A model generated the notes under the pieces. That model was not told where the DNA came from and ran no database searches. It saw only the letters and a program-made list of their open reading frames with translations. This document shows positions 16,604 through 54,464 of a DNA stretch of 64,000 nucleotides, piece after piece; positions within the stretch are counted from its first letter, which is position 1, and each line of letters opens with the position of its first letter. The stretch comes from Nitrosophilus labii (GTDB taxonomy: Bacteria; Campylobacterota; Campylobacteria; Campylobacterales; Nitratiruptoraceae). The stretch is taken from assembly GCF_014466985.1 (NCBI RefSeq), contig NZ_AP022826.1, forward strand, positions 682,001 to 746,000, in the 5' to 3' direction. A program made the translations under genes and the position numbers.

Positions 16604-17449
16604 TTAGTTACGGTTTTTAGCTGCTTTGATAGTATTTTTTAAAAGCATTGCTATTGTCATAGGACCTACACCGCCAGGCACCGGTGTTATGTAACTTGCT
16701 TTTTTGCTTACATTTTCAAAATCAACATCTCCAACAATTTTACCGTTATCAAGTTTATTAATGCCTATATCTATAACTATAGCTCCTTCTTTTACCATAT
16801 CTTCAGTGATTAGGTTTGGTTTACCCACTCCAACGACCAATAGATCTGTTCTTTTAGTGTGAGATTTGAGATCTTTGGTAAAAATATGGCAAATATCGAC
16901 CGTTGCAAAATCGTTTAGCAAAAGTGCGGCCATTGGCTTACCCACAATATTGCTAGCACCGACTACACAAGCGTCCATACCTTTAATATCTATTTGATAC
17001 TCTTTTAACAACTCCATAACTCCAAGAGGGGTACAAGGAACAAAACTGTCAAGCCCTTGATTGAGTCTGCCAAAATTATAGGGATGAAAACCGTCAACAT
17101 CTTTTTTCGGATCGATTACTTCCAATATTTTTGTTGTGTCTATATGTTTTGGCAAAGGGAGTTGAACCAGAATGCCGTCAATATTTGGATTTTGATTCAT
17201 CATTTCAATGGTTTCAATAATCTCTTTTTCGCTGATCTCTTCTGGCATCTCATGAGTTATGGAGTAGATTCCGACCTCTTTACAAGAACGAGCTTTCATT
17301 TTGACGTATGTGTGGCTTGCAGGATCGTTTCCTACAAGAATAACTGCTAGTCCTGGAACTATATCTTTCTCTTTTTTTAGAAGTTCAACCTCTTTTCTCA
17401 CTTCCTCTTTTATTTTTAGTGATAAAGCTTTACCATCTAAAATAGTCAT
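16604..17449 (-). CDS. folD: Bifunctional methylenetetrahydrofolate dehydrogenase / cyclohydrolase
   Basis: Makes 10-formyl-THF from methylene-THF using NADP. SHTYVKMKARSCKEVGI contains the catalytic Lys. GILVQLPLPKHID, VVGASNIVGKPMA and TPVGGVGPMTIAMLL are signature blocks. An upstream ATG at 17485 would add 12 residues. I prefer the ATG at 17449 because GAGGAA lies just before it and MTILDGKALS is the family start. With purU further on, this supplies one-carbon units for purines. Confidence 0.95.
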   Translation of the reverse strand: MTILDGKALSLKIKEEVRKEVELLKKEKDIVPGLAVILVGNDPASHTYVKMKARSCKEVGIYSITHEMPEEISEKEIIETIEMMNQNPNIDGILVQLPLPKHIDTTKILEVIDPKKDVDGFHPYNFGRLNQGLDSFVPCTPLGVMELLKEYQIDIKGMDACVVGASNIVGKPMAALLLNDFATVDICHIFTKDLKSHTKRTDLLVVGVGKPNLITEDMVKEGAIVIDIGINKLDNGKIVGDVDFENVSKKASYITPVPGGVGPMTIAMLLKNTIKAAKNRN

Positions 17450-17529
17450 AATTTCCTCTTCAAATTTTTTTAGGTATGATATCAAAAATAGATTTTGTTT
17501 TGGTTTAAATCCTATATAAAGGGAATTTG

Positions 17530-17877
17530 TTGAGAATTGTTTTACTATTTATTCTTCTTATTTCTCTTTTTGCAGACGACTCTTTCATAACCAGATACGA
17601 ATATGCGAAAATGCTTTATGAAAATCCTAGAGGTATTGGGTGTCAACATTGTCACGGAGTAAAAGGAGAGGGATCGATAATCGCTAAATACAAAGATAAA
17701 AAAGGGGTAAAGTATCTAAAAGCTCCTGATATTAGAGATGTGGATTATAAAAGGTTTTATAAAAAACTGAATTCTAGAAAGATTAAGAGCGCAATGCCTA
17801 GCTATTTTTTAACAAGAAGCGAGATAAAAACGCTTTACTACTATATAAAGATGATAAATAGTGAGGATAAGAGATGA
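17530..17877 (+). CDS. Small monoheme c-type cytochrome
   Basis: About 115 residues: a signal peptide (hydrophobic stretch IVLLFILLISLFA) and one heme site CQHCH at about residue 38. There is no CcoP- or SoxX-like second domain. The distal Met may be in IKSAMPSYFL, the usual cytochrome c position. Two TTG codons (17527, 17530) could start it. The second has better spacing from AAAGGGA (17518-17524). Its stop overlaps the next gene start (ATGA). Probably a periplasmic electron carrier. Confidence 0.8.
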   Translation: MRIVLLFILLISLFADDSFITRYEYAKMLYENPRGIGCQHCHGVKGEGSIIAKYKDKKGVKYLKAPDIRDVDYKRFYKKLNSRKIKSAMPSYFLTRSEIKTLYYYIKMINSEDKR

Positions 17878-18818
17878 TTTTTGAAAAGAGTTTTATAGAT
17901 GAGCTAGAGAGTTTAGTGGAAAAAAAAGATTTAAAAGCTATTGAAAAATATATCCTCAAACTAAAAAGAGAAAAAACTAAAAAGATTGTTTATAGATCAG
18001 CTTTAATGGTCTCTGCACATAGGCCGAAACATTTAAATAAACTTGACTCTTTAGAAGCCGATATCGCCATTATAAACTTAGAAGATGGAGTAAGTAAAGA
18101 ACTAAAGCCGACTGCGTTGAGGTTGACGGCTCTATTTTTATCTCACATAAAAAGAAGTGATTCTTTATTGGTAGTTAGAGTAAATCCTCTTGATAACGGT
18201 GGAAAAGAGGAGATAGAGTATCTAAATAAATTCAAACCGGACGCCATCAGAGTTCCTAAAGTCAAAACTCCAAAAGATGTGGAAAAAGCTTTGGAGTTAA
18301 TTGATAAAGAGATAGATTTGCATCTATCTATAGAGACAAAAGAGGCTTTTTTAAATCTCGAGAGTTTGAGGGTAAATGAAAGGGTAAAAGTTTTCTATCT
18401 AGGTATTTTGGATCTTTTAAGCGATCTAGATATTTTTCAGCAGATTTTAGAGATAAAAAATCCTACTATCGATCATATATTGAGTCGTTTTTTGGTAGTC
18501 TCTAAAGCTAGTTGCGTTTTACCCGTATCTTTTGTGTATCAAGATTATAAAAATTTAAATGAGTTTGAGGATTGGTGTAGATACGAAAAAAATATGGGTT
18601 ATAGAGTAAAAGGTTGTATATCGCCCGCTCAAGTGGAGATAGCCAATAGAGTTTTCGGTTTATCTAAAGAGATTTTGGAAAGAGCTGAATATATAAAAAT
18701 GAGATTTGAGGAGATGAAAAACAAAGGAATTACAGGATTCACTGATGAAAAATATGGTTTTATAGATGAGCCTATATACAAAGATGCCGTAAATATTCTC
18801 AGAAAATCGATGATATAA
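17874..18818 (+). CDS. HpcH/HpaI aldolase / citrate lyase beta-like protein
   Basis: A TIM-barrel protein of 314 residues. ALMVSAHRPKHLNKLDSLEADIAIINLEDGV matches the CitE-family start with its EDGV metal-binding Glu region. VVRVNPLDN, RVPKVKTPKDVEKA and LSIETKEAF are further family blocks. CitE-like proteins cleave citramalyl- or malyl-CoA or related thioesters. The exact substrate cannot be read here. No CitD/CitF is nearby, so it is a stand-alone lyase type. Confidence 0.75.
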   Translation: MIFEKSFIDELESLVEKKDLKAIEKYILKLKREKTKKIVYRSALMVSAHRPKHLNKLDSLEADIAIINLEDGVSKELKPTALRLTALFLSHIKRSDSLLVVRVNPLDNGGKEEIEYLNKFKPDAIRVPKVKTPKDVEKALELIDKEIDLHLSIETKEAFLNLESLRVNERVKVFYLGILDLLSDLDIFQQILEIKNPTIDHILSRFLVVSKASCVLPVSFVYQDYKNLNEFEDWCRYEKNMGYRVKGCISPAQVEIANRVFGLSKEILERAEYIKMRFEEMKNKGITGFTDEKYGFIDEPIYKDAVNILRKSMI

Positions 18819-18878
18819 AAAAAAGTTAATAAAAAATATTATATGATTTAATAATTTTTTTTTATTGTAAGGTAGATT

Positions 18879-19481
18879 ATGTATAGGTATATAAAAGTAA
18901 AAAATAATAAAAAACTTTTGAATGATATTTTTAGATTTAGGTGCAAGATATTGTGTGATGAATTAAAATACTTTGATAAAAAAAGATATCCGGATGGTTT
19001 AGAGAGAGACGAATATGATAAATATTCAGAACATTATGCTGTTTTAGACGAGAAAGGAGAGATAGCTGCTACGGTTAGATTGATTCATCATTCTCCGATA
19101 GGTTATCCTACGGAAAATCATATGAGAGTTTTTGAAAATATTAAAAAAAGTCTAAAAAGAGATAAGCTAGGAGAAATATCTAGGATATTTATATCAAAAC
19201 AGTATAGAAATTTAAAAGATAGTAGAAAAATAATAGAAAAACTTATAAGTATGATTTACATAGATTTAAAAAACAACGATATAGAATATACTTTTGGCGC
19301 ACTTGAGAAAAGTTTTTTAAGACTTTTAAAAATATATAATATTAATTATGAAATAATTGGAGATTTGCAAGAATATGGAGGAGTTAGATATCCTTGTTTA
19401 CTATATACTTCCTCTTTAGAAAAAGATAAACCTCAAGTTGTTGAGTGTTATAAGATTTGGAAGGTAGGAAATGGTCATTAA
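18879..19481 (+). CDS. LuxI/FeeM-like GNAT-fold N-acyltransferase
   Basis: A 200-residue protein. FRFRCKILCDELKYF followed by DEYDKYSEHYAVLDEKGEIAATVRLI matches the fold of autoinducer synthases, FeeM-type N-acyl amino acid synthases and the PEP-CTERM/exosortase-associated acyltransferases. A second shared block, LGEISRIFISKQYR, also appears. Such enzymes join an acyl chain from acyl-ACP to an amine. Its SD is TAAGG. The stop overlaps the next ORF by 11 bp, so it is coupled to an outer-membrane receptor. No LuxR-type gene or exosortase is present in the window. The product is unknown; a signal or lipid-like amide is the inference. Confidence 0.7.
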   Translation: MYRYIKVKNNKKLLNDIFRFRCKILCDELKYFDKKRYPDGLERDEYDKYSEHYAVLDEKGEIAATVRLIHHSPIGYPTENHMRVFENIKKSLKRDKLGEISRIFISKQYRNLKDSRKIIEKLISMIYIDLKNNDIEYTFGALEKSFLRLLKIYNINYEIIGDLQEYGGVRYPCLLYTSSLEKDKPQVVECYKIWKVGNGH

Positions 19482-21555
19482 AAAACTTTTTTTGTTATTA
19501 ATATTAATTTCATCATTCTTGTATGCCCAATACGATAAAAATGAATCGATAAAAAAAAAGGATATAGAAGAGATTATTATAGATATTGTTAATGATTTAA
19601 AAGAATTAACGGAAATTGCTACAGTTACAAAAAAGAATGAAGCTTACCAGCCTTATATAGTATCAACTTTTAGTGGAAAAGAGTTAGAAAAATTAGGAAT
19701 AAAAAATCTTAAAGAGGCTCTAGAACTAATTCCGGGCGTAGATATGACGACTGATAATATTGATAATAAAACCCCTGTTTTTAGAGGTTCCAATCCATTT
19801 GCTTACGGTCAATCAAAGTTAATTGTTGATGGTGTAGTAGTAAATAATGTAATGTTTGATTCATATAATGAATTTTTATATATGCCGATTGAGATTATTA
19901 AAAGGATAGAAGTTGTAAGAGGTCCTGGAAGTAAAACTGATGGAATTAACGCTTATGCCGGCTCTATTAAAGTTATAACTTACGCAGAACAGTTTAAAGG
20001 TATGAAGACACAAGATAAAATGTTTTTAAATATAGGTTCTTATGAATATAGAGGTGGAGGTTTTTTAAAAAACTATAAAAATGGAGCACTCAATATCTTT
20101 ACCGATTTTTATTATCAACAAGACGATAAGTTTTTGCCTGCTGGAAAAGATATGTTATCTACTGGGACTTATGGGAACTATAACAGTCAATTTTCTCAAA
20201 GTGGAGATGCTCCTTTATGGACAAAAAATTACTCTTTGGGAGTCACTTTAAATTATAAAGATTTTACGTTAAAAGCAAGGAAGCTTTTTTATAAGCATGG
20301 AAGTGCTTACGGGATCAATTATATGTTGCCTGAAAGCGATAACCATACTAAGTTTTTAAATGACTATATTGAACTTGGATTAGATAGATACGTTAATGAG
20401 CTTAAAGTAGCTGCAAAAGTTGGAGTTAAAATTGACGAATTTTATAGTGATGCTAGATTGGCACCGCCGGGCATAGTCTTTCCTAATCCGCTAGATAACA
20501 ACAATTTAGTTCAGTATACCAACGGTTTTTACGGGATTCACAATACAAAACAGAGAACTATGTATCATTCACTCTTTTTTGATTATTCAAAGATTGATAA
20601 CCATAAGATCAAATTTGGCTATTTACTTTCAAGAGAAGAAACTTATAAAGTTACAACAAAAACTACAGATAGATTTGGAATTTTACCAGGGCTTATCGAT
20701 TATAGCGATACGTATCCATTTTTTGATAAAGATGCGAAAAGAGATACTCTGATACTCTCCTTTCAAGACGATTTTGATATAAATGAAAATGTAACAATAA
20801 GTTATGGAGTCAATATCGAGGATAATACGCATATAGATCCACAAGTAAACCCGCGAGTTGCCTCTGTATTTAGAATAAAAGAAAATATATATAAATTAAT
20901 TTATAGCAGATCAATTAGAAATCCTTCTTGGCAAGAACTATATACTATAAACAACAGCTCAAGAGTCGGAAATCCAAACTTAAAGCCAGAAATAGTAAAT
21001 GCATTTGAAGCAGCATATATAAGAAAATTTTCTGTAGATAGTTATATGCAGTTTAATATTTTTTATCTAAAAAATAGAGACCAAATCAATAAAATAAACT
21101 CTCAAAACAGATATGAAAATGCGCAAAATACCGATATTTATGGATTTGAGTTTGAGTATAAAAGAATGCTTGGACAAAAGAGCAAGTTTTGTGGAAACTA
21201 CTCTTATGTAGATGGAGAGGATGATAAAGGTGAACAGTTAGCAAATGTAGCAAAACATATGATTAAAACTTTTTTGGTTTACGAACTAACTCCACAGATT
21301 GATGTTAATATTATAGGAAAATACGTAGGAGATAAAAGAAGATTCTCTTTTGATTCAAGAGATAGTTTAAAAGGGTATGTCACTTTGGATTTAGGATTTA
21401 ATTATGAAAATTTAAAATATAATTATTCAGTAAATTTAATCGTTAAAAATATTTTTGATGCTGACGTAAGATATCCTTCAGAGCCTGATACTTATACAGA
21501 AGATTATAGACAAGAAGGAAGAAACATGATGATATCTTTTAGGAAAGAGTTTTGA
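19471..21555 (+). CDS. TonB-dependent outer membrane receptor
   Basis: 694 residues. A signal peptide (FLLLILISSFLYA) is followed by a possible TonB box near TEIATVTKK. The plug domain (about 50-150) has SGKELEKLGIKNLKEALELIPGVD, VFRGSNPF and RIEVVRGPGS. The rest is a 22-strand-type barrel ending in aromatic-F as usual (FRKEF). Length matches a siderophore- or cobalamin-like receptor. The ligand is not predictable. It is the second gene of an overlapping four-gene operon, and a TonB gene converges on the operon end. Confidence 0.9.
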   Translation: MVIKKLFLLLILISSFLYAQYDKNESIKKKDIEEIIIDIVNDLKELTEIATVTKKNEAYQPYIVSTFSGKELEKLGIKNLKEALELIPGVDMTTDNIDNKTPVFRGSNPFAYGQSKLIVDGVVVNNVMFDSYNEFLYMPIEIIKRIEVVRGPGSKTDGINAYAGSIKVITYAEQFKGMKTQDKMFLNIGSYEYRGGGFLKNYKNGALNIFTDFYYQQDDKFLPAGKDMLSTGTYGNYNSQFSQSGDAPLWTKNYSLGVTLNYKDFTLKARKLFYKHGSAYGINYMLPESDNHTKFLNDYIELGLDRYVNELKVAAKVGVKIDEFYSDARLAPPGIVFPNPLDNNNLVQYTNGFYGIHNTKQRTMYHSLFFDYSKIDNHKIKFGYLLSREETYKVTTKTTDRFGILPGLIDYSDTYPFFDKDAKRDTLILSFQDDFDINENVTISYGVNIEDNTHIDPQVNPRVASVFRIKENIYKLIYSRSIRNPSWQELYTINNSSRVGNPNLKPEIVNAFEAAYIRKFSVDSYMQFNIFYLKNRDQINKINSQNRYENAQNTDIYGFEFEYKRMLGQKSKFCGNYSYVDGEDDKGEQLANVAKHMIKTFLVYELTPQIDVNIIGKYVGDKRRFSFDSRDSLKGYVTLDLGFNYENLKYNYSVNLIVKNIFDADVRYPSEPDTYTEDYRQEGRNMMISFRKEF

Positions 21556-22100
21556 TGAAAAGAGTAGTTATTATTATATTTTTAACAAATATTTTACTTT
21601 TTGCGTATAGTTACGATGATTTTTTATTGAAAACCCAGGCAAAAATTTATCCAAAACTTATTCTACTTGATAAAAAAATAGATAAAAAATTAATAGACGG
21701 AAAGATTCAAGTAGGAATCGTTTACGATAACGATGATTTTTTTACCGCTTTGTTGATAAAAAAACTGATAAAAAGTATGTATGGCAATAAGTTAGATGGA
21801 TATAGTTTCAAAATAATTCCTATAAATATGTTAAATATTTTAAATGAAAAATTGAATATTTTTTCATATCTATATATTTTAAAATCTATTCCTGATCGAT
21901 TAAAAACGCTTTCGCTATATGTTAAAAAATATAGAATTGTAACATTTACGTATGATAAAAACGATTTGCAATATGGTTTTTTGTTTTCTATAAATTTGGA
22001 AAAAAAACCGATTCTATATATGAATAGAAAGGCGTTGGAAAAAGAGTTCGATTTTGTACCTTCTCTATTTCAAATCGTCAGGTTGATAGATAATGTTTAA
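21555..22100 (+). CDS. YfiR-like (DUF4154) periplasmic protein
   Basis: About 181 residues: a signal peptide, then an alpha/beta domain. KIQVGIVYDNDDFFTALLIKK resembles the YfiR beta-strand start. The C-terminal ILYMNRKALEKEFDFVPSLFQIVRLID matches the YfiR end pattern in which strand then helix hold hydrophobics. In Pseudomonas, YfiR represses the membrane cyclase YfiN from the periplasm. The ATG at 21555 overlaps the receptor stop (TGATG) and has AGGAAAG upstream; a TTG three bases earlier is less likely. Assignment is by pattern and context. Confidence 0.6.
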   Translation: MKRVVIIIFLTNILLFAYSYDDFLLKTQAKIYPKLILLDKKIDKKLIDGKIQVGIVYDNDDFFTALLIKKLIKSMYGNKLDGYSFKIIPINMLNILNEKLNIFSYLYILKSIPDRLKTLSLYVKKYRIVTFTYDKNDLQYGFLFSINLEKKPILYMNRKALEKEFDFVPSLFQIVRLIDNV

Positions 22101-24027
22101 CATATCTCTATCAAACAAGATCTTGATCTACTTTTTTCTTATAACTGTTTCTATTATAATTTCTACTTATCTAGTTTTAGAAAAAATTACGAAACAGGCT
22201 TTTTATGACGCTGAACTTGAAAAAGCAAAAATTATTGCAAAAACAGTAACTCCTCTTCTAGCATTGGATCTCTTTTTGGGTCTTGATGATAACATTAATA
22301 AAATTTTAAAAGAGCTTTCAAAAAATGAGAATATATTATCAGTTTCAATTATAAAGGGTAATGAGATATATAAAGAGTTCAAAAAAAAGATATCTAACGA
22401 TGAAGACTCTTTTCTGGTTTCAAGAAGAATTGTTCAGCCAAATTCAAACAAAATTTTAGGTAGGCTCGAGATACTATATTCTAGTAAACATTATAAAAAT
22501 TTAGTAAAAAAATATCAAAAGGCACTATTTATTTTTTTAGCAGTTCTTTGGATTTTAATTTTATTGTTTGGGTACTATTTAAATATATTGATAAAGCCTC
22601 TTAGAAATATTGCAAAAGATTTGGAAAATTATGATCCGAAAAATAGTATAAGGTTTAAGTATGTTGAAAAAAGTGATGAGATAGGCGCAATCTCTAAAGC
22701 GTTAAATAAAATGCAAGGTAAAATTAAAGATTATTCTAAAAGACTTGAGAGTATGAATAAAATTTTAGAAAAAAAGGTTGAAATAAAGACTAAGGAGCTA
22801 AAAGAGCAGCTATATTTAGATTCTTTGACGAAACTGCCCAACAGATTTAGTCTTGTAAAAGATATTCAAAGTGCGAAAAAGAGTAGTTTAATAATTATTA
22901 ATATTGACGATTTTAAGCAAATAAACGATTTTTTCGGGCATGAAACCGGGGATAAAATCTTGAAAGGTTTTGCAAATAGACTTAGAAATCTATTAAAAAC
23001 TGAGTTTCCTAAAATTTATAGGCTATCTGGAGATGAGTTTGCTCTTTTTTTTAACAAAAAGATGACTAAAGGAGATTTAGAGTACTTTATAGAGATTTTA
23101 ATGAAAAATATTGAAAACATGACTTTTATACATAATGATAATGAGCTTAATATCAGAGTAACTATTGGAGCTGCTATAGAAACTAACTCTCCTTTGGAAA
23201 AAGCAGATATAGCTTTGAAATTAGCTAGAAAAGAGAGAGTTCCATATAAGATTTATGACAAAGATTTGAAGATAGAAAAACAGTATAAAGAGAATATAGA
23301 GTGGGTAAAAAAGATAAAAAAAGCTATAGATAAAAATAGAATAGTTCCATATTTTCAACCTATATTTAGTACAAGTGAATTTAAATTAAAAGGGTATGAG
23401 TGTTTGATGAGACTGGTTGAAGAAAATGGCGAATGTATTACTCCTACCAATTTTTTAGAGATTGCAAAAAAGAGTAGATACTATACTTATTTAACAAAGA
23501 TTATGTTTGAAAAAAGTTGCAGTTATTTTTCAAATCTTGATTGTACATTCTCTTTCAATCTTTCGATTGAAGATATATCGAATCCTGAAATTATAGAGTT
23601 TATAAAAGAGACGATAGATAGATACAAAGTTTATGAAAAAACGATTTTTGAGATTGTTGAGTCCGAAGGTATAGAAAATTTTGAAGAGGTGTCTGTTTTT
23701 ATTGAAAATATGAAACAACTTGGCGCTAAAATAGCTATAGATGATTTTGGTTCAGGATATTCCAATTTTGAGTATTTGGCAAAACTTACTATTGATTATA
23801 TAAAGATTGACGGCTCTTTGATAAAAAATATCGATAAAGATGAGGATTCTAGAATTGTTGTAGAGATAATAGTTGATTATGCTAAGAAAAAGGGTATTAA
23901 AACTGTTGCAGAATTTGTAGGCAATGAAAAAATATATAAAACAGTTAAAAAAATTGGAGTTGACTTTGCTCAAGGTTATTATATAGGTAAGCCTGGACCG
24001 ACTACTATTTTTGATATCAATAAATAA
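22093..24027 (+). CDS. Membrane sensor with HAMP, GGDEF and EAL domains
   Basis: 644 residues. Helix 1 is about 9-30, followed by a periplasmic domain of about 110 residues. Helix 2 is about 140-160, then a HAMP segment and a short coiled coil. The GGDEF-type domain carries SGDEF at about 311-315 (Ser at position 1) with upstream DFKQINDFFGHETGD. The EAL domain has ECLMR (ExLxR kept), NLSIED, FEIVESEG, IAIDDFGSGYSNF, YIKIDGSLI, VAEFV and AQGYYIGKP, so all catalytic residues look intact. It probably makes and/or breaks cyclic di-GMP. It overlaps the YfiR-like gene by 8 bp; architecture resembles YfiN with an added EAL. Confidence 0.9.
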   Translation: MFNISLSNKILIYFFLITVSIIISTYLVLEKITKQAFYDAELEKAKIIAKTVTPLLALDLFLGLDDNINKILKELSKNENILSVSIIKGNEIYKEFKKKISNDEDSFLVSRRIVQPNSNKILGRLEILYSSKHYKNLVKKYQKALFIFLAVLWILILLFGYYLNILIKPLRNIAKDLENYDPKNSIRFKYVEKSDEIGAISKALNKMQGKIKDYSKRLESMNKILEKKVEIKTKELKEQLYLDSLTKLPNRFSLVKDIQSAKKSSLIIINIDDFKQINDFFGHETGDKILKGFANRLRNLLKTEFPKIYRLSGDEFALFFNKKMTKGDLEYFIEILMKNIENMTFIHNDNELNIRVTIGAAIETNSPLEKADIALKLARKERVPYKIYDKDLKIEKQYKENIEWVKKIKKAIDKNRIVPYFQPIFSTSEFKLKGYECLMRLVEENGECITPTNFLEIAKKSRYYTYLTKIMFEKSCSYFSNLDCTFSFNLSIEDISNPEIIEFIKETIDRYKVYEKTIFEIVESEGIENFEEVSVFIENMKQLGAKIAIDDFGSGYSNFEYLAKLTIDYIKIDGSLIKNIDKDEDSRIVVEIIVDYAKKKGIKTVAEFVGNEKIYKTVKKIGVDFAQGYYIGKPGPTTIFDINK

Positions 24028-25003
24028 TTTTGTATTGAACGAAAATTCTTATTTTAGTCTTCTCTTTAGGCCTTGGATAATCTTTATAGGCTGAAAGTAT
24101 TGTTTCGAGACTATTTTTGTCTAGTATCTCGTAACTAGAGCTTTTTATGATCTTTAAATCACTTATATCTCCGTTTGGATGAAGATAAAACTCAACGATA
24201 TTTACTCCCTCTTGTCTTGTTTTCACGGCAAATTCTGGATAGCCTCTTATATATAGATATTTTTGAGTAATTTTTCCGATAGCTGAGAGATTGTTTTTTA
24301 TAAACTCTTTTTGTCCTTTAGTAAAGGAATCAAACTCGCCCTGGTAAAGTTCGTTTATTTTTTGATCTTCCATCGATTTACTTATCTCTTGTAAAGAGGG
24401 TAGTTTGGATTGCTTTAAAAAAGAGACTAGGTTTTTTTCTTCACTTTTTTTTGTCTCTTTTTTTGTTTGTTGCGTCTTTTTAAAAAGTTTTTCAAGTTTT
24501 GGAATTTTTTCCTCTTTTTTTGGTTGGATAGATTTTTGTTTCGACTTTTTTATCTCCTGTTTGGCAACTTTTATAGGTTTAATATTTTTAACTTTTTTGG
24601 TGATATTATATTCTTTAGATTTTACGATTTTACTCTTTTTTAAGACCTTCTTTTTCATTTTTTGAATATTTTTAACAATCTTTTTTTCAGGTTTTTTTTC
24701 AACTTGTTCAATTTTTTTAACTATTTTTTCTCTTTTTTGTAAAACCTCTTTTTTTACTCTTTTTGGCTCTATCTGTTTTTTGGGAGTTGTTTTTTTGACT
24801 ATTTTTTTAGATTCGGAAGTTTTTTGGGGCATGCTTTTATCTAAATTGACTCTACTTAGGTTCATATTGATAGAGGATTTTTGCTTCCTGTTAAACTTTT
24901 GTGCCTCAACCTCTTTTAAAAGAGTTAAAAAAACAATAAAAAGAATCAAATATAATACTAAAGTTATTAAAAATGAGAACAAATATCTATATCTATAAAT
25001 CAT
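24017..25003 (-). CDS. tonB: TonB-like energy transducer protein
   Basis: 328 residues with one N-terminal helix (about 11-30). Then comes a very long Lys/Glu/Gln-rich linker to about 200 in place of the usual Pro-rich one, and a C-terminal TonB domain ending with GDISDLKIIKSSSYEILDKNSLETI and IRIFVQYKI. It spans the periplasm to drive TonB receptors. The 3 prime end overlaps the GGDEF-EAL gene end convergently by 11 bp. No exbB or exbD is adjacent, so the motor must be elsewhere. Confidence 0.8.
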   Translation of the reverse strand: MIYRYRYLFSFLITLVLYLILFIVFLTLLKEVEAQKFNRKQKSSINMNLSRVNLDKSMPQKTSESKKIVKKTTPKKQIEPKRVKKEVLQKREKIVKKIEQVEKKPEKKIVKNIQKMKKKVLKKSKIVKSKEYNITKKVKNIKPIKVAKQEIKKSKQKSIQPKKEEKIPKLEKLFKKTQQTKKETKKSEEKNLVSFLKQSKLPSLQEISKSMEDQKINELYQGEFDSFTKGQKEFIKNNLSAIGKITQKYLYIRGYPEFAVKTRQEGVNIVEFYLHPNGDISDLKIIKSSSYEILDKNSLETILSAYKDYPRPKEKTKIRIFVQYKIIY

Positions 25004-54389: not shown

Positions 54390-54464
54390 TGGCGACCCCA
54401 GGGGGACTCGAACCCCCGTCACCGCCGTGAAAGGGCGGTGTCCTAACCGCTAGACGATGGGGCC
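54390..54464 (-). tRNA. tRNA-Glu (anticodon UUC)
   Basis: A 75-nt cloverleaf on the minus strand: 5 prime GGCCCCA acceptor, D-arm TCTAGCGGTTAGGA, anticodon stem CCGCC/GGCGG with loop CTTTCAC (anticodon TTC). The T-arm GGGGGTTCGAGTCCCCC is followed by encoded CCA. It abuts an integrase remnant, so it is a likely integration target. Confidence 0.95.

Follow-up and report, generated by a model that had tools for sequence, protein, structure and literature searches.

The 64,000-nucleotide window analysed here (G000:C1:682001-746000, from the 2.09-Mb, two-contig genome of Nitrosophilus labii) carries a four-gene cassette in which a LuxI/FeeM-type N-acyltransferase (AT), a predicted N-acyl amino acid synthase, is followed by a TonB-dependent outer-membrane receptor (TBDR), a YfiR-like periplasmic protein and an inner-membrane GGDEF-EAL enzyme, and whose gene order recurs in many genera. 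We propose that the cassette encodes a self-sensing circuit in which an N-acyl amino acid made by AT would be sensed by the TBDR and relayed by the YfiR-like protein to cyclic di-GMP turnover, a reading to which we assign a probability of about 0.52. The broader claim, that such cassettes form a new class of cell-cell signalling in which cells secrete an N-acyl amino acid, or the methyl ester of one, that acts through a TBDR and a YfiR-type relay on cyclic di-GMP without a LuxR-type receptor, loss or exchange of the synthase giving rise to receiver-only and altered-signal lineages, is more tentative and in our judgement falls somewhat short of an even chance.

The four ORFs all lie on the + strand, between positions 18879 and 24027 of the window, and encode AT (18879..19481, 200 aa), the TBDR (19471..21555, 694 aa, with a plug at residues 60-164 plus a barrel), the YfiR-like protein (21555..22100, 181 aa from its ATG) and the GGDEF-EAL enzyme (22093..24027, 644 aa). 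Neighbouring frames overlap by 11, 1 and 8 bp, as the first-pass annotation of this DNA had described, when the ATG at 21555 is taken as the YfiR-like start. The ORF caller had chosen a TTG at 21552, one codon earlier, and we placed the start at the ATG because the invariant Met of the family alignment, the second residue of the TTG-started ORF, falls there. Pfam matches (Acetyltransf_5, Autoind_synth and FeeM for AT; Plug plus beta-barrel for the TBDR; GGDEF plus EAL for the fourth gene) uphold the domains first assigned to acyltransferase, receptor and effector, and the same search returned no match for the window's own YfiR-like protein. Upstream of AT lies a 60-bp A+T-rich spacer (18819..18878, + strand) with a weak sigma70-like match at 18826-18855 and no Fur box above shuffled background, preceded by genes for a cytochrome c and a CitE-like aldolase/lyase (17527..18818, + strand). 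These genes abut AT throughout the window's family, overlapping it in some species, and are possibly co-transcribed with it there; because they are conserved beside AT only in this family, we place them outside the core cassette. A TonB-family gene (24017..25003, - strand, 328 aa) is convergent to the cassette, a position kept only within the window's own family, in several members, and its product is a candidate energiser of the TBDR. Intrinsic terminators were not found within 17400-24200, nor structured RNA at the cassette locus, the sole one seen being a tRNA at 54393-54464.

A close AT homologue is present in 31 of the 397 genomes of the phylum, and its neighbourhood was read in all 31, one AT lying at a contig end and leaving 30 informative genomes. 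The TBDR gene is directly downstream of AT on the same strand in 27 of these 30, so that adjacency is the rule in the relatives where the first-pass annotation had suggested looking for it, and a general separation of AT from the receptor was not seen. On contigs long enough to show it, the YfiR-like and GGDEF-EAL genes come next after the TBDR; the exception is one genus (g37, of the same family as Sulfurimonas), whose GGDEF-EAL gene lies immediately 5' of AT in divergent orientation. Among named genomes, a separate scan run with a closer subset of the AT alignment found 33 close AT homologues (30 of them adjoined by a TBDR) and placed the cassette in Nitratiruptor, Hydrogenimonas, Sulfurimonas and some Arcobacter/Arcobacteraceae. 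The flanks on both sides vary from genus to genus, so that the unit consists of the four genes. Of the 397 genomes, 29 have both AT and the receptor-module clade, 2 have AT alone and 4 the module alone (Fisher p 2e-37, uncorrected for relatedness); given this co-occurrence and a gene order shared by many genera, we do not consider the arrangement a product of chance. AT is the sole Acetyltransf_5 protein of the window's genome, and the receptor module is missing altogether from one genome with a distant AT (G077). Carriage of the cassette on plasmids was considered and rejected, the plasmid collection containing no receptor match. The same arrangement outside the phylum was likewise rejected for 20 regions around more distant ATs in one proteobacterial class, none of which holds a match to either TBDR or YfiR; in a few of them GGDEF-EAL is encoded nearby. 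A literature search confined to openly licensed papers, and thus weak evidence of absence, yielded no description of the cassette, in line with the initial remark that this four-gene combination was not a familiar one.

The predicted structure of AT (ACYLTRANSFERASE; mean pLDDT 97) superposes nearly equally well on LuxI-type and FeeM structures, with Z scores of 17.5-18.8 for TofI, LasI, BjaI and RpaI (TofI 18.8, LasI 18.4) and 17.4 for FeeM. The LuxI/GNAT fold is accompanied by the pattern Arg...Glu-x-Asp-x-(Phe/Tyr)-Asp...Glu-x-Ser-Arg, with Tyr replaced by Trp once among the 31 ATs and with R21, E42, D44, D47, E99, S101 and R102 invariant in 31/31; from the shared fold we infer that Glu99 would be equivalent to FeeM Glu95. 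Pfam Autoind_synth scores 32.2 against a gathering score of 24 and PF21926 (FeeM) passes with 29.4 against a cut-off of 27, both agreeing with the superposition and with the LuxI/FeeM-like label first given to the protein. The LuxI signature (PROSITE PS00949), which we take to be R-x3-F-x2-[KRQ]-x2-W, is matched in this form by 0/31 ATs, and the NCBIfam AHL-synthase models reach 22.2 bits against a cut-off of 292 and 19.3 against 250. The best curated profile is TIGR03694 (107.6 bits, just below its cut-off of 111.95), which all 31 members match. TIGR03694 proteins are reported to be N-acyl amino acid synthases linked to the exosortase system (Craig et al. 2011, as cited in PMC7293339 and PMC4897644). 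We rejected the exosortase link that this profile hints at, as PF09721 finds no exosortase in the window's genome and matches in 2 of 28 AT genomes. LuxR-type receptors, sought by their autoinducer-binding domain (PF03472), were found in 0/33 AT genomes. AT is predicted to be an N-acyl amino acid synthase.

The TBDR, whose signal peptide was judged by eye, has no detectable STN signalling domain. Its best score against curated siderophore, heme and B12 receptor families is 92 bits versus a cut-off of 223.5, and among solved structures CirA, the colicin I receptor, is the closest in sequence, with the match covering the plug. A Fur-box scan upstream of 43 cassettes gave a mean best match of 11.65/19 versus 11.72 in shuffled sequence, and for lack of any excess Fur regulation was rejected. 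Neither a match above the cut-off of a known metal-chelate family nor an excess of Fur boxes was seen; the first-pass annotation would have counted a clear family match with a Fur box upstream against its proposal.

The model of the YfiR-like protein (mean pLDDT 90) superposes on P. aeruginosa YfiR with Z scores of 13.7-15.0 over ~142 residues (4zhu, 5eb1, 4yn7, 4yn9, 4yna, 4xjy, 6ikk, 4zhy), unrelated entries scoring ~9, which places the original YfiR-like assignment on a structural footing; Pfam DUF4154 weakly matches 6 of 27 homologues (best E 9.8e-6). The disulfide cysteines of P. aeruginosa YfiR have no counterpart here, the alignment showing no conserved Cys column and the window's mature protein no Cys. 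The GGDEF-EAL protein has hydrophobic segments centred at residues ~13-24 and ~149-161, with a periplasmic loop between them and a HAMP-like linker; the YfiN model NF007423 aligns to residues 10-365, and histidine-kinase models match the N-terminal part alone somewhat better than YfiN does. The GGDEF motif is usually SGDEF and comes without the RxxD inhibitory site. The EAL catalytic residues E436, N489, E520, E523, D550, D551, K571, E607 and Q627 are invariant in 25/25 effectors, at a spacing like that of RocR. Because these residues are all present in 25/25, cyclic di-GMP hydrolysis is the likelier output, and a degenerate cyclic di-GMP receptor of the LapD type was rejected; the effector may possess cyclase activity as well.

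A gene of the leucine-carboxyl-methyltransferase family (LCM, PF04072) precedes AT by a few bases in three genomes (G370, G294 and Arcobacter SZUA-449; LCM-AT loci L057/L108, L058/L106 and L105), the order in SZUA-449 (L105) being LCM-AT-TBDR-YfiR-GGDEF-EAL, and none of the other AT genomes tested has a member of this family. An LCM beside AT accords with a product that bears a free carboxylate, such as an N-acyl amino acid, which some lineages may turn into a methyl ester. In roseobacters, the synthase of N-acyl amino acid methyl esters is reported as unidentified, and given this gap the LCM-AT pair is of interest for that pathway.

Matches to the YfiR family occur in 49 of the 397 genomes, and most AT-free copies sit in TBDR-YfiR-effector sets whose effector is a GGDEF, a GGDEF-EAL (PAS-GGDEF-EAL) or a histidine kinase protein; an existing NCBIfam model, NF053592, is named 'sensor histidine kinase, YfiR-like protein-associated'. 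The window's own genome contains a second TBDR-YfiR-PAS-GGDEF-EAL module without AT (L165, G000:C1:2000-17000, the module itself at ~G000:C1:6965-11908). The system first put forward for this locus is therefore upheld in its linkage of AT to the receptor and refined in its scope, since TBDR-YfiR-output is a wider, mostly AT-free module, a relay of a known type, to which AT is an addition. In a receptor tree, a quick one with long branches in its AT-free part, the AT-bearing receptors form one clade, with six state changes versus 23.5 under shuffled labels; this argues for a history in which AT was probably gained once by a pre-existing relay and lost several times later. The pairwise divergence of AT correlates with that of the TBDR, YfiR-like protein and effector (r 0.83, 0.79 and 0.76).

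Some lineages depart from the linked state. In G370 and G294, AT lies away from the module yet is retained in the genome; it falls into one AT clade with the linked Arcobacter copies, and the receptors likewise group together in the receptor tree. Within the LCM-type subclade AT is divergent, whereas the receptor is still among Sulfurimonas receptors and the relay has likewise kept a Sulfurimonas-like placement, and AT therefore appears to have been exchanged. AT has been lost while the module persists in G132, G381 and G136: a decayed AT remnant lies directly 5' of an intact receptor chain in G132 (L150). Elsewhere AT is broken into fragments beside an intact chain (G257, L065), or AT and TBDR are both gone from the syntenic site and YfiR and the effector are kept (G281, L152). 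Receiver-only relatives, such as LuxR solos, are typical of signal systems, and the AT-decayed cassettes may be likened to them, single-event deletions being no proof.

In the circuit that we infer, AT would use an acyl chain, probably supplied by acyl-ACP, to acylate an amino acid or a similar amine, and the resulting N-acyl amino acid would exit the cell, or arrive from neighbours, and then bind the TBDR. Once occupied, whether or not TonB-driven uptake takes place, the receptor would contact the YfiR-like protein in the periplasm and alter its state, and the YfiR-like protein would alter GGDEF-EAL activity as YfiR does that of YfiN, most likely by switching cyclic di-GMP hydrolysis, the EAL site being intact. 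The anatomy of the cassette is secure, and self-sensing, the best-supported reading of it, draws on the conserved gene order, the single clade of AT-bearing receptors, the correlated divergence, the folds of AT and of the YfiR-like protein, the invariant catalytic residues of AT, TIGR03694 as its best profile, the LCM pairing, the retention of unlinked ATs in the genome, the two cassettes with a decayed AT beside an intact receptor chain, the lack of LuxR in 33 AT genomes and the intact EAL site. Counted against it are the frequent AT-less modules, from which it follows that the chassis can sense other things, and an AT-linked receptor could bind an unrelated compound that AT merely helps to process; the exchange of AT in the LCM-type subclade, which would require either that the receptor be tolerant or that the products be similar; and the position of AT slightly under the TIGR03694 cut-off, together with the G077 AT and its genome without a receptor module.

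The main rival holds that the TBDR imports an environmental nutrient or metal chelate, which YfiR and the GGDEF-EAL enzyme report, while AT acylates or detoxifies the cargo or produces an acylated siderophore. Import is the chief role of TBDRs, the resemblance to CirA over the plug and the TonB gene adjoining the cassette in the window's family point the same way, and the TBDR-YfiR chassis is widespread without AT. However, siderophore family cut-offs are not reached, Fur boxes are not in excess, the conserved unit lacks siderophore biosynthesis genes, AT falls in the long-chain acyl LuxI/FeeM group, and decay of AT alone beside an intact receptor chain would be odd if AT were needed for ligand processing; we regard such assisted scavenging as unlikely. 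AT might instead make a homoserine lactone, in a true LuxI-type circuit with the TBDR as receptor in place of LuxR, as suggested by its best superpositions (TofI and LasI, Z 18.8 and 18.4), by Autoind_synth scoring above its gathering value and by the Trp that Arcobacter-type ATs carry at the LuxI Trp position. This is rather improbable in view of the LuxI signature (0/31), the AHL-synthase scores of ~20 bits against cut-offs of 250-292, the lack of LuxR in the 33 AT genomes and the pairing with a carboxyl methyltransferase, which fits a carboxylic acid and not a lactone.

A role in membrane lipids, with AT making an OlsB-like lyso-ornithine amino-lipid and the receptor chain serving as an envelope sensor of membrane composition, draws on OlsB models that match 6/31 ATs (E about 1e-8), but the TIGR03694 and LuxI/FeeM matches are stronger, the OlsB likeness is limited to a minority and the conserved unit has no OlsA-type partner, so that we consider it very unlikely. 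Loss of AT from G132, G381 and G136 and its relocation in G370 and G294, with the module persisting in each case, would also be expected if AT were co-transcribed with the receptor chain for convenience and functionally apart from it. Against this stand a linkage kept over many genera despite changing flanks, the correlated divergence, the strong co-occurrence and the retention of moved ATs in the genome, and we give mere co-transcription only a slim chance.

The self-sensing circuit resembles several known systems in part. In YfiBNR (TpbB) of Pseudomonas aeruginosa, YfiR exerts its inhibition on the periplasmic domain of YfiN, and outer-membrane YfiB sequesters YfiR (PMC4655355). Both systems combine an outer-membrane part, a periplasmic YfiR fold and an inner-membrane protein with a periplasmic domain, HAMP and GGDEF, but a TBDR takes the place of the OmpA-like lipoprotein YfiB, the cassette effector adds an intact EAL, its YfiR-like protein lacks the disulfide cysteines and an AT gene leads the operon. 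The PEP-CTERM/exosortase N-acyl amino acid synthases of TIGR03694 (Craig et al. 2011, as cited in PMC7293339 and PMC4897644) provide the closest profile to AT and share the LuxI/FeeM fold, whereas AT is shorter, just under the cut-off, encoded in a genome without exosortase and linked to a receptor chain. With LuxI-LuxR the cassette has in common the synthase fold and catalytic residues, a synthase adjoining its presumed receptor and receptor-only relatives; unlike LuxI-LuxR it lacks the LuxI signature and LuxR, its receptor would sit in the outer membrane and its output would be cyclic di-GMP and not transcription. AT-less TBDR-YfiR-output modules (cf. NF053592) have the same TBDR-YfiR-effector order, but no acyltransferase and a varying effector. 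N-acyl amino acid synthase (NAS)-PilZ fusion enzymes recovered from the metagenome of a slaughterhouse biofilm, in which the synthase carries a putative cyclic di-GMP-binding domain, likewise tie such a synthase to cyclic di-GMP (PMC4897644), whereas the link in the cassette runs via a receptor chain.

Two further observations concern the surroundings of acyltransferases. In 8/8 loci (L066-L071, L073 and L076), mostly from families f7 (which includes Arcobacter) and f4, genes for a 7TMR-DISM histidine kinase and an OmpR-type response regulator, in some cases joined by a second regulator, accompany the gene of a FeeM-type acyltransferase (PF21926, about 220-255 aa). This constitutes a second synthase-plus-receptor arrangement. 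In Hydrogenimonas (L042 and L056), a gene for a 1036-aa membrane protein, which resembles RND pumps only in its length and N-terminal sequence, is found 64-70 bp 5' of AT at both loci and may encode an exporter.

An operon that joins synthase, receptor and cyclic di-GMP enzyme gives such synthases a concrete, testable role. If the self-sensing circuit is real, it would represent outer-membrane perception of a self-made amphiphile, a new way for a cell to sense its own molecule, and it would hint at the role of many orphan TBDR-YfiR-effector modules. It would also provide vent and sulfur-oxidising Campylobacterota, in whose AT genomes LuxR was not found, with a signalling mechanism.
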